A stretch of 45,511 nt of DNA, taken from the NCBI GenBank assembly GCA_017449215.1, contig JAFSJY010000066.1, positions 1 to 45,511 of the forward strand. The letters are read 5' to 3'. This DNA is from Acholeplasmatales bacterium (GTDB taxonomy: Bacteria > Bacillota_I > Bacilli_A > Acholeplasmatales > Anaeroplasmataceae). Position numbers and translations under genes: made by a program. Every line of letters begins with the position of its first letter. The stretch's first letter is position 1. This document shows, piece by piece, positions 19,128 through 24,144 of the stretch. The notes under the pieces are model-generated. The model had not been told where the DNA came from. It searched no databases and worked only from the letters and a program-made list of their open reading frames with translations.

Positions 19128-22100
19128 CTAATTTTTAAAATAATCTACTGCGTTCTGGAAGATATTTTGTTGCTTATTTCCAGAAATATTCTTAAATAGG
19201 TTTTCCTCATATCTCTCAGAATGTCCCATCTTACCTAAGATTAAGCCATCCTTAGATACAATACCCTCAATTGCATAATCAGAACCATTTGGATTATATG
19301 GTGCCTCAGTAGTTGGGTTACCATTTCCATCAACGTATAAGAATGCAATTTGACCATCATCTCTTAGCTTCTCAGCTAATTCCTTAGATACAACAAACTT
19401 ACCTTCACCGTGTGATACAGCAATAGAATCAATTTGACCTAATTCTAATCCAGCTAACCATGGTGACTTATTAGTCATAAGCTTAGTTGAAACAATTTGA
19501 GATATATGTCTATTAATATCATTTCTAAATAATGTAGGTGATTCTTTAGTTAATTCACCAATCTTACCATATGGTAATAAACCTGACTTAACTAATGCTT
19601 GGAATCCATTACAAATACCTAAGATTAAGCCCTTTCTAGCAATTAAACGATTAATAGCAGCCTTAACCTTTTCTTGATTTAATACATTAGCGATGAATTT
19701 AGCAGATCCATCTGGCTCATCACCAGCTGAGAAACCACCTGATAATACAAATATATCGCATGCATCAATCATCTTTTCCATTTCAAGAATTGATTCAAAT
19801 ACATCATCTGAAGTTAAGTTCTTAAATACAGATGTTGTAATAGTAGCTCCTGCTCTTCTAAATTGCTTTGAAGTATCATAATCACAGTTTGTACCAGGGA
19901 ATACAGGGAAGTAAGCAACTGGTGTCTTCTTAGCTCCTGATGCAGCTGGCTTTTGATCAAATGGCTTTATATCCATAAGCTCACACTTGTTATCGCCCTT
20001 ATCTTTATATACCTTATTAAACTTAGCAGTATTTGCTTCATATAATTCTTCTAATGTAAATACTTCATTATTGAATTTAGCAGTCTTAGTATCATTTGTA
20101 GAACCAACTAGAATTACATTCTTATAAGCAGGTAATTCATTCTTTGCTTCTACTAAAATAGAACCATAATTGTATCTATTTAATTCCTTTTCATCATAAT
20201 TGATTTCAAAACCAATTTCATTACCGAAGCTCATCTTAGCTGCAGCTTCTACAACACCACCAAATGATAATGCATATGCAGAAATAATATTACCATCAAC
20301 GATATTATTATTTACATATTCAAAATTATCCATTAATTCATCTGTATTTGGAGTGAAGTTTGCATTTTCATTATGCTTAATTAAATATAGCTTATGACCA
20401 GCCTCTTTAAATTCTGGAGAAATAACAGTTCTAGCATCAACTGTTGTAATACCAAATGCCATTAGCATTGGTGGAACGTTGATGTTTTGGAATGTACCAC
20501 TCATAGAATCCTTACCACCAATTGATGGAAGGCCAAATTCATTTTGCATCTTTAAAGCACCAAGTAAAGCAGCAAGTGGCTTACCCCAAGATTCCTTATC
20601 ATTCATTCTTTCGAAATATTCTTGGTAAGAGAATCTCATCTTATTATATTTACCACCAGCAGCTACAACCTTAGAAATTGCTTCTACTATAGCATATTCA
20701 GCTCCATGGTATGGAGAATACATAGCTAAATATGGGTTATAACCATAAGCCATGATTGATGCTGTATTTGTAAATCCATTTAATACTGGAAGCTTTTGAC
20801 AAGAAACCTGAGTTTCAGTTCTTTGAGTCTTTCCACCAAATGGCATTAATACTGTAGACGCACCAATTGTAGAGTCGAACATTTCAATTAAACCCTTTTG
20901 GCTTGTTACGTTATTATCATTTAAAGTATTTAATACTCTATCTCTTAATGGTTCATCGTTCTTATAGAATGGATTCTTATTCTCTACTGAACCAATCTTT
21001 GCCTTAGCTGTATGTACAGCACCAGCTGAATCTATAAACTTTCTAGAAAGATTAACAATCTCTCTTCCTCTATAATGCATTACTAAACGCTTTTCTTCAG
21101 TTACCTTAGCAACCTCTGTTACTTCGATGTTTTCCTCATGACAATACTTCTTAAATTCCTCAACATCCTTAGGCTCAACAACTACTGCCATTCTTTCTTG
21201 AGATTCAGAAATAGCAATCTCTGTTGCATTTAATCCTGAATACTTAACAGGAACAACATCTAGGTTAATATCTAATCCATCAGCTAATTCACCGATAGCT
21301 ACTGAAACACCACCAGCACCGAAGTCATTTGATTTCTTAATTAGCTTAGTAACCTCAGGTCTTCTGAATAAATGAGAAATCTTTCTTTCCTCAGGAGCGT
21401 TACCCTTTTGAACCTCTGATGAGCAAACCTCTAATGACTTAGTTGTATGCTCCTTAGATGAACCAGTTGCACCACCGATACCATCACGACCAGTTCTACC
21501 ACCTAATACTAAAATGATATCACCAGGATTTGGAGATTCTCTTCTAACATTTTCAGCCTTAACAGCACCAACTACTGCACCAACCTCTAAACGCTTTGCA
21601 ACATAATTATCATGATATATTTCTCTAACATGAGTTGTTGCTAAGCCGATTTGGTTACCATATGAAGAATAACCACTTGCTGCCTTAGTTGAAATAATAC
21701 GCTGAGGTAGCTTACCCTTTAATGTATCCTTAACATCAGCGTAGATATTACCAGCACCAGTAACTCTCATTGCTTGATATACATAAGCTCTACCAGAAAG
21801 CGGGTCACGGATAGCACCACCTAAGCATGTAGATGCACCACCGAATGGCTCAATTTCAGTTGGATGGTTATGAGTTTCATTCTTGAATTGTAATAACCAT
21901 TTCTCAATATTTGAATCAACATCAACATCTACAAAAATTGAGCATGCGTTATTTTCCTCACTAACCTCCAAATCATCAAGCTTACCAATAGCCTTTAAAT
22001 ATCTACCACCAATAGTACCTAAATCCATTAAGCACTTCTTTTTCTTTTCTCTCTTTAAATCCTTACGAATGTTATCATATAAATCTAAAGATTCCTCAAA

Positions 22101-23918
22101 TTCACTCTTCATGAATGAATTCTCAATCTTGATATTCTTTAAAACTGTATTGAATGTTGTATGACGGCAATGGTCAGACCAATAAGTATCTAGAATTCTA
22201 AGCTCTGTTTCCCAAGGATCTCTTCCTTCTTCTCTAAAGTATTCAATAACACACTTTAGGTCATCCTCATTCATAGCTAAACCCATCTTCTTTACGAATT
22301 CAGGTCTACCAAAGTGATTAATCTTTCTGAATCCCTCTAATACCTTAACTGGAATGATTGGAGCCTGCTCCATATCAGTTAGCTTACTTAAATCCTTTTC
22401 TCTTGCCTCAACAGCGTTAATTACATATTTCTTAATTTTTTCAATATCTTCATCAGTTGTATTATCATCTAGGATAATGATTCTTCCTGATCTAATATTG
22501 ATTTCTGCCTTTGGATCAATTAGCTTACAGCAGTCGATAGCTGATGAAGCTCTTTGATCGAATTGTCCTGGTAGATATTCTGTTGCAATATACTTCTTGC
22601 CCTCAAGATTTAATTCATCAGTTACATTATCAGTAACGATTTCACCAAATACCTGATATCTACTCTTTTCTAATAATTCATCTGAAAAATTAAATAAATC
22701 ATAAACATTAATTGTTCTTACATTTTGAAGATTTAATCCTAAATTTAGATTTAATTCAGCTTGAAGACTCTTTGCTTCAACCTGGAATTTAGGAAGCTTT
22801 TCAACATAAATTCTATAATTACCCATACTATCTACCTTTTCTTTACAAAATAAATTTTTATAATTTTTATCATATTCAGAAAGCGTCAAGTTTGTGAAAG
22901 TGACATGTGCCATCTTTCTCTTTTCTCTTACTTCCTCCTTATGATAATCATGAACATAAATATTATCATTCTTATCAAGCTTTTTCATATTCTCATAATC
23001 AAAGCCTAGGATATTTTTCATAATTGTTGGACTCTTTAACTTAGGTTCCTCTAAAGGCATATCAAGTAAGAACTTTGCAAGCTCTCTATACTGATTTGTT
23101 GTACAGCCCTCAATTGTATAATGTCCTGAATTATGAGGTCTTGGTGCCATTTCATTGAAATAGAATTCATCACCCTTAACAAAGAACTCAATTGCAAGTA
23201 TTCCATAATAATTGCAGCTTTCCATAAACTTAATGGCAGCTTCCTTTATTTTTTTGAATACTGGTAATTCTTCATTAACAACACATAGGTCTAGGATTCC
23301 TTCCTTATGCTTATTGATACCCATAGGGAAGCAAATCGTTTTATCCTTACCTCTAACTAAAATAGCTGATGTTTCAAAATCATATTTAATGAATTCCTCA
23401 AGGATACCTTCACCCTCTAGGAATGGCTTTACCTTTTCAATGTCATCTAGCTTTTTAATGACAACCTGACCATGACCGTCATATCCAAGCTCAGTTGTTT
23501 TATAAACACATGGAAGACCTAATTCCTTTATTCCAGCCTTTAAGTCATCTAGGTTGTAGATTGCTTTAAATCTTGGAGGTGTTAATCCATGCTCCTTAGC
23601 GTTTGTTTTTTCTCTAATTCTGTTTTGAGAATCAAACAAAGGCTCAATACCCTGTGGGATATTGTATGTATCTCTTATGAATTTTAATTTTTCACCAGGA
23701 ACATTTTCAAATTCATACGTTAATACATCTGATGCCTCACCAAGCTTCTTTAATCCCTCAAGGTCATCATATTTAGAAACAATAACTGAATCACATACAA
23801 ATGAGGCAGAGCACTTAGGATTAGGATCTAAGCATATAGCCTTGCCGCCTAATTTATTAACTTCTTCAGCTAGCATCATTCCTAGCTGTCCACCGCCTAA
23901 AATACCAACAGTTTTCAT
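19128..23918 (-). CDS. PurK-PurL fusion: N5-CAIR synthase joined to phosphoribosylformylglycinamidine synthase
   Basis: One 1596-residue frame holding two normally separate enzymes. Residues 1-~360 are PurK (ATP-grasp; [43 protein letters not shown]), making N5-CAIR from AIR. From Met365 onward is a complete large-type PurL of the clostridial kind: the FGAM synthetase part has [32 protein letters not shown] and a second AIR-synthetase-like half; the C-terminal amidotransferase (~1320-1596) has [11 protein letters not shown], nucleophile Cys near 1436 in GICNGFQ, and the His/Glu of HGEGKF and GHSER. PurL turns FGAR into FGAM using glutamine, so no PurQ or PurS is needed. Normal lengths on both sides show that neither half is truncated. 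Met365 (codon 22824-22826) is preceded by AAAAGG 8 bp upstream, so a free PurL could also be made. It is the first gene of the purine operon, behind an attenuator-like leader. Confidence 0.93.
22824..22840 (-). promoter_or_regulatory. Possible internal ribosome binding site at the PurK/PurL junction
   Basis: AAAAGG (22835-22840), 8-base spacer, ATG (22824-22826) in frame. The PurL homology begins right at this Met ([12 protein letters not shown]), the family's usual N-terminus. This looks like the old purL start kept inside the fused frame; whether it is still used is unknown. Confidence 0.5.
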
Positions 23919-23930
23919 TTTATCTCCTTA

Positions 23931-23968
23931 AAAAATAAAAACAACACCAAAATAGGATTAGTGTTGTT
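23931..23968 (-). terminator. Intrinsic terminator in the purine operon leader (attenuator)
   Basis: Minus strand: AACAACACTAA (23958-23968) pairs with TTGGTGTTGTT (23940-23950), 11 bp with one G-U, loop of seven, then TTATTTTTT. It ends just ahead of the AAGGAG of the fusion gene, between the operon's promoter and its first gene, so it must be read through for expression. Confidence 0.85.
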
Positions 23969-24042
23969 TATTGCATATTAAAATAACCATTAAGACATAA
24001 TGGGTTAGTAGAATTATTTACCTGCTTAGATAGTTTAACCAT
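23968..24042 (-). CDS. Candidate 24-residue leader peptide of the purine operon
   Basis: A short frame beginning MVKLSKQVNN and ending GYFNMQ, with GGAG nine bases before its ATG (24040-24042). An upstream in-frame ATG at 24057 would give 29 residues but has a poor ribosome site. The stop codon TAA shares its last base with the 5' arm of the terminator, so a ribosome reaching the end of this frame would cover the base of that stem. The peptide has no run of one amino acid, is not a peptide I recognise, and carries no obvious purine-related signal. Evidence for it being translated is positional only. Confidence 0.5.
   Translation of the reverse strand: MVKLSKQVNNSTNPLCLNGYFNMQ
23982..24042 (-). 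promoter_or_regulatory. Mutually exclusive hairpins in the purine operon leader
   Basis: Segment 2, TAACCCATTA (23998-24007), can pair upstream with segment 1, ATGGTTA (24036-24042), or downstream with segment 3, TAATGGTTA (23984-23992; nine pairs, one bulge). Segment 3 could instead pair with AATAAAC (23966-23972), which overlaps the 5' arm of the terminator. This is the 1-2-3-4 arrangement of a ribosome-controlled attenuator, but AT-rich sequence can give such pairings by chance. Confidence 0.4.
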
Positions 24043-24077
24043 ACGATTTTTCTCCATTTCAAGTAATAACCACTCTT

Positions 24078-24094
24078 TATAAGCTATGCTTATA
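24078..24094 (-). other. Small hairpin at the 5' end of the purine leader transcript
   Basis: TATAAGC-ATA-GCTTATA, seven pairs with a three-base loop, ~25 bases after the predicted transcription start. May stabilise the leader or be part of a larger fold. Confidence 0.5.
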
Positions 24095-24115
24095 TCTTTT
24101 ACACAAAGCAATAGT

Positions 24116-24144
24116 ATTTTATCATACATTTAAATAAACGTAAA
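24116..24144 (-). promoter_or_regulatory. Promoter of the purine operon
   Basis: Minus strand -35 TTTACG (24139-24144), 17-bp spacer, -10 TAAAAT (24116-24121). An overlapping alternative is TTTATG-18-TATGAT. The transcript would carry a leader of roughly 190 bases. Together with the leader elements this accounts for most of the 343-base gap 23919-24261; the stretch 24145-24233 shows only AT-rich sequence with no clear operator. Confidence 0.6.

Follow-up and report, generated by a model that had tools for sequence, protein, structure and literature searches.

A probable translation-coupled transcription attenuator in the leader of a purine operon of Acholeplasmatales, joined in some relatives to a guanine riboswitch

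Introduction

In the pyrBI attenuator of Escherichia coli, a ribosome on the leader masks the terminator, polymerase pausing depends on UTP, and the sequence of the leader peptide is unimportant. The his and trp leaders also contain pauses, at which a hairpin lies ∼11 nt before the end of the RNA. Purine synthesis in Firmicutes-like bacteria is usually seen as being under the control of PurR and of aptamer riboswitches. The consensus of bacterial pauses reads G−10 Y−1 G+1, with Y-G as its core (PMC9291695). Stop codons placed a few bases ahead of a terminator in E. coli cut termination from ∼90% to <10%, and ribosomes normally have little effect on a terminator that lies no more than 100 bp into a frame unless the polymerase pauses; the same source cites the pyrBI attenuator (PMC4824070).

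Here, we examine the leader of a purine operon in a 45,511-nt stretch of DNA from an Acholeplasmatales bacterium (GenBank assembly GCA_017449215.1, contig JAFSJY010000066.1), which is called the window below. Judging from sequence comparison, we give a probability of roughly 0.7 to the reading that this leader is a translation-coupled transcription attenuator with a pyrBI-like logic, joined to a riboswitch elsewhere in the family and standing alone in the window.

Results

The leader precedes a purK-purL fusion, and its parts are collected in Table 1. Promoter, 5′ hairpin, Shine–Dalgarno (SD) site, 24-codon frame, and terminator were all located where the original prediction had put them. The frame starts with an ATG at 24042 and encodes the peptide MVKLSKQVNNSTNPLCLNGYFNMQ; its TAA stop codon (23970..23968, minus strand) overlaps the first bases of the terminator hairpin H3. 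H1 has the core ACTTG...CAAGT, H2 falls late in the leader frame, and the 5′ hairpin occupies the position that a guanine aptamer holds in relatives. Two terminator-like sites were found in the region compared with 0.1 in shuffled sequences. The operon continues after purK-purL with purC, purM, purN, purH, purD, folD, purB, and guaA, of which purC and guaA were, like the fusion itself, identified with Pfam and the others named by reading their sequences. An Rfam search of the window at gathering thresholds returned zero known RNA families, PRPP, ZTP, and T-box elements included, and a permissive threshold applied to the leader gave chance-level matches only. The original prediction, which saw no conserved core of a guanine, PRPP, or ZTP riboswitch here, agrees with the covariance models.

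Table 1. Positions of the leader elements and of the first operon gene in the window
Feature	Position	Strand	Basis or remark
-35 element TTTACG	24139..24144	(-)	17-nt spacer to -10 element; TTTAC kept in close relatives
-10 element TAAAAT, TG just before	24116..24121	(-)	TAAAAT-like element at same position in relatives
5′ hairpin TATAAGC-ATA-GCTTATA	24078..24094	(-)	Common to nearest relative (L025) only
H1 hairpin GTTATTACTTG : CAGGTAAATAAT, with the SD and AUG of the leader inside	24013..24070	(-)	Covariation
Leader Shine–Dalgarno GGAG	24052..24055	(-)	GGAG, GAGG, or GGGG kept in relatives
Leader frame, 24 codons + TAA	23968..24042	(-)	Open in 28/28 leaders; other frames closed; peptide unconserved
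H2 hairpin CCATTA-TGTCT-TAATGG, candidate RNA polymerase pause hairpin	23987..24003	(-)	Compensatory changes
Y-1/G+1 step, putatively pause-like, 12 nt past H2	23974..23975	(-)	Sequence pattern across 28 leaders
H3 intrinsic terminator with T-rich tail	23929..23969 (stem 23969-23939)	(-)	Terminator scan, covariation
Shine–Dalgarno of purK-purL	23924..23927	(-)	
purK-purL fusion, first gene of purine operon	19128..23918	(-)	Pfam

We drew relatives of purK-purL from genome contigs and 55 genomes of the family to which the window belongs and found that their upstream regions carry the parts in the same order as the window. The comparison set consisted of 28 leaders: 21 ahead of purK and 7 found with a covariance model, R1, which was built from 18 of these 21 and supplied with no gene context. 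R1 matched before purL where purK is missing (L065, L069, and L074), before purE(-purK) (L077), and before fhs, encoding formate-THF ligase (L078 and L079), gene names at these loci being assigned by reading the sequences. R1 was blind to context, yet its matches front purine or one-carbon genes, and we therefore counted them in favor of the attenuator reading. Three further matches (L080, L081, and L083), which lie in other contexts and have no fitting frame, were rejected as false. A search with R1 of 160 genomes from the order and 395 from the class, whose fast filters may lose weak members, found nothing outside the family. Fusions of purK and purL that are 62–68% identical to that of the window also occur on GC-rich contigs labeled Alistipes (L006, L013, L014, L016, and L022), where they stand directly after an apparent purE and have no leader; the fused gene may have moved between the window's group and Bacteroidota.

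The frame that begins at the SD-preceded ATG is open as far as the terminator in all 28 leaders; the two alternative frames have 75 and 91 stops, and only ∼19% of shuffled leaders would be expected to keep an open frame. The naive product of these chances (1e-18) ignores shared ancestry, and the comparison of frames within the same sequences is the better control. A ribosome-binding site lies ahead of the frame in every leader examined. The terminator stem, as delimited by script, begins at the second base of the stop codon in 14 of the 28, and most of the other frames end within the terminator. The script mistook H2 for the terminator in L027, L028, and L036 and caught the stem of L037 incompletely; inspection by eye puts the stops of these four at the terminator as well. 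The frames of L043 and L090 continue past the terminator as far as purK, where the stop and start codons overlap (TGATG, ATGA), an arrangement that would couple translation of the leader to that of purK.

Differences between the leader frames at codon positions 1, 2, and 3 number 290, 369, and 343, with no third-position excess, and the higher BLOSUM score of frame 0 is owed partly to stop codons in the alternative frames. The reading frame of the H2 3′ arm varies among leaders, giving NG, MV/MA, or W. Between L078 and L079, a 1-base insertion alters the C terminus of the peptide, and the stop stays at or in the terminator. Because there is no position-3 excess and H2 is read in different frames, selection seems to act on the position of the ribosome and not on the peptide, and amino acid sensing by the leader is unlikely. 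QVN is common in the leader peptides, its N codon falling just outside the H1 core. Directly after QV, in the window (24019-24013) and at the corresponding place in relatives, there is almost invariably an AAT (Asn) codon, even though it lies outside that core.

On a model-fitted alignment of the 28 leaders, which is biased toward the structure it was fitted to, H1, H2, and H3 were paired in 87.8% of cells, and 20 of 23 pairs change on both sides. This covariation was matched by none of 500 shuffles and by no slid register (29–50% in the slid controls). It holds in the 16 leaders without a riboswitch taken alone and likewise in the 12 with one. H2 by itself is paired in 94% of cells, with compensatory changes. 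The original prediction had named conservation of the frame and hairpins in relatives as a check, and the outcome of this comparison is positive. It had also proposed two alternating hairpins, 1:2 and 2:3; the former, which is our H1, was retained (mean duplex z −1.5), and the latter was discarded (mean z +0.09, no better than shuffles). H1, H2, and H3 are mutually compatible, and H2 is no alternative to either H1 or the terminator. Closure of the SD site by H1 is only partial in energy models.

A Y-G step occurs 11–13 nt after H2 in 23 of the 28 leaders, compared with a mean of 6.7 and a maximum of 14 in 2000 shuffles. This sequence pattern suggests that the polymerase may pause after H2.

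Of the 28 leaders, 12 (L033/L008, L034/L020, L038, L039, L040/L011, L042, L043, L045, L065, L069, L074, and L077) have the guanine riboswitch (RF00167) immediately upstream, scoring 63–82 bits against a cutoff of 37; it is absent from the entire genome of the window. In all 12, the best upstream partner of the H1 5′ arm overlaps the aptamer core GCAAGUCUCUA; most single z-scores in this partner search are modest, and the evidence is the agreement between genomes. No upstream partner of H1 beat chance in the window, and none was conserved in the leaders without a riboswitch. In sister genomes that have no leader frame (L044, L046–L049, L089, and L100), the strand complementary to the core (AGAGAC) instead forms the 5′ arm of an ordinary terminator. 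In energy models, the anti-aptamer state lies ∼2–12 kcal/mol higher in energy (less stable) than the full ensemble, so that yielding of the free aptamer is not predicted.

Riboswitches sampled from the order's other families nearly always have a terminator 5–50 nt behind the aptamer and no such frame. A possible exception is L137 (genome G063), where a purine riboswitch precedes a frame of 25 codons that has a GGAGG site and stops inside a terminator before a lipoprotein gene; it is possibly an independent case. Other genera of the window's family have further leader frames behind riboswitches, before purE, purK, guaB, and fhs, that end at or in the terminator, with the frame of L090 running through it. 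In genus g4 (L092 and L182), the frame between a guanine riboswitch and guaB has 10 codons and ends at the terminator, the same plan without H2.

A PurK tree, weak at several deep branches, shows at least five changes of riboswitch presence and one change to leader absence. In leaders without a riboswitch (e.g., L028, L032, and L029–L031), A+T-rich hairpins, one or two per leader and varying from lineage to lineage, replace the aptamer, the first of them in L028 resembling a bare P1 stem (GTCTT..AAGAC). In the lineage of the window, the riboswitch has disappeared, leaving the probable attenuator on its own. The N-terminal domain of PurR (PF09182) was found in 0 of 55 family genomes, in a search that detected it in the controls E. 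coli, Bacillus subtilis, and Lactococcus lactis.

Discussion

The comparison supplies the frame, the position of its stop, the three hairpins, and the presence or absence of the riboswitch; from these parts, we infer ribosome masking, pausing, the direction of control, and the sensor. Transcription from the promoter would first produce H1, by which the SD and AUG of the leader are closed in part, then H2, then the Y-G step 12 nt on, and finally the terminator. A ribosome on the 24-codon frame would reach the stop and mask the 5′ arm of the terminator, permitting readthrough into purK-purL and turning the operon on; were the leader untranslated, the terminator would form and the operon would be off. 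The attenuator model needs the pause, because a terminator so early in a frame (the first 100 bp) normally otherwise escapes ribosomes.

In the members that carry a riboswitch, the free aptamer core GCAAGUCUCUA would pair with the H1 5′ arm, leaving the leader SD open and the operon on, and the guanine-bound aptamer would free this arm, so that H1 forms and the operon is off. Switching does not follow from equilibrium folding of the riboswitch form alone, and we base this step on the complementarity and on the comparison. In the window, which has neither the riboswitch nor any other visible upstream partner of H1, the pause would be the remaining purine-sensitive candidate. With G as the next nucleotide, it could act as a GTP-dependent timing step, which is the most economical guess and the weakest step of the scheme. 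We put forward only tentatively, as somewhat doubtful, the wider proposal that the riboswitch acts on an intrinsic terminator via translation of the leader peptide and that some lineages kept only an attenuator timed by GTP-dependent pausing, a purine counterpart of pyrBI.

The leader might instead be an RNA element alone, with H1 and H2 forming a new aptamer or the site of a protein or small RNA and the frame being incidental. Covariation of H1 and H2 would account for the conserved QV and PL..NG residues, and the lack of peptide conservation by codon position fits as well. An incidental frame, however, would not have remained open in all 28 leaders when ∼19% is the shuffled expectation, nor would it always end at the terminator, and there is a ribosome-binding site ahead of it in every leader examined; we consider an RNA-only element distinctly improbable. 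A classical leader-peptide attenuator, in which stalling at Asn or Gln codons or a metabolite-bound nascent peptide lets alternative hairpins switch, could draw on the frequent QVN, with its N codon just beyond the H1 core. It is very hard to credit against a leader that has no codon run, no third-position excess, and no conserved alternative hairpin, in which H2 is read in different frames and a 1-base insertion (L078/L079) changes the C terminus while the stop remains at or in the terminator. The position counts and the varying frame of H2 likewise tell against the glutamine/asparagine or nascent-peptide sensing that had been entertained for this leader.

The attenuator reading could also hold for the family and the module in the window be unregulated since the loss of the riboswitch, setting only a fixed level of readthrough. 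In its favor, the window has no upstream partner for H1, and its genome has neither riboswitch nor PurR; the frame and hairpins, however, are kept and covary in all 16 leaders without a riboswitch, across the at least five riboswitch changes on the PurK tree, and we judge a fixed readthrough level unlikely. The original view of leader-peptide control as a different solution from riboswitches survives in part: the frame is conserved, but "different" does not fit a leader that follows a guanine riboswitch in 12 of 28 cases. The leader frame appears to have grown together with the guanine riboswitch and not simply as a separate solution.

The window's family has no detectable PurR domain and includes members without a purine riboswitch, yet the putatively ribosome-coupled terminator is kept. 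Plain riboswitch terminators, riboswitches with a leader frame, and the leader frame alone form a natural series, which lets one test how one layer of control is added to, and then outlives, another. The family would also provide a clear case in which the action of a riboswitch on an intrinsic terminator by way of the ribosome can be tested. In the open-access literature, which is the part covered, we found no riboswitch reported to use a leader frame to act on an intrinsic terminator; nor did we find there a ribosome-coupled attenuator of purine synthesis or a guanine riboswitch combined with a leader peptide for purine genes.

Among known systems, the trp and his attenuators share with this leader a leader frame, a terminator, and a leader pause hairpin (hisL: PMC9291695); unlike them, the leader of the window has neither a regulatory codon run nor an alternative antiterminator hairpin. 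The B12 riboswitch of ppe2 with uPPE2 and the pe20 Mbox with the uORF rv1805A in Mycobacterium tuberculosis resemble the family in that a riboswitch governs a small upstream frame that affects the operon (PMC11260477, PMC12810186). These cases involve translational coupling or Rho-dependent termination, whereas the window's family has purine genes, an unconserved peptide, and an intrinsic terminator overlapped by the stop. With the RF00167 terminator platform, the family shares the aptamer itself, placed before the frame in 12 of 28, and a strand complementary to the aptamer core. Ordinary members of that platform (L044, L046–L049, and those of other families) place this strand in the terminator; here, it lies in a hairpin over the leader SD, and the window has no aptamer. 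Like E. coli pyrBI (pyrL), the leader has a short frame that ends at or in an intrinsic terminator and encodes a peptide without regulatory codons, and by the proposed mechanism, a ribosome would likewise mask the terminator, with upstream polymerase pausing setting the timing. No sequence kinship with pyrBI is expected. Unlike pyrBI, the leader of the window serves a purine operon, has a hairpin-type candidate pause with G as the next nucleotide, and holds its SD inside a hairpin, and many members of its family carry a guanine riboswitch in front.
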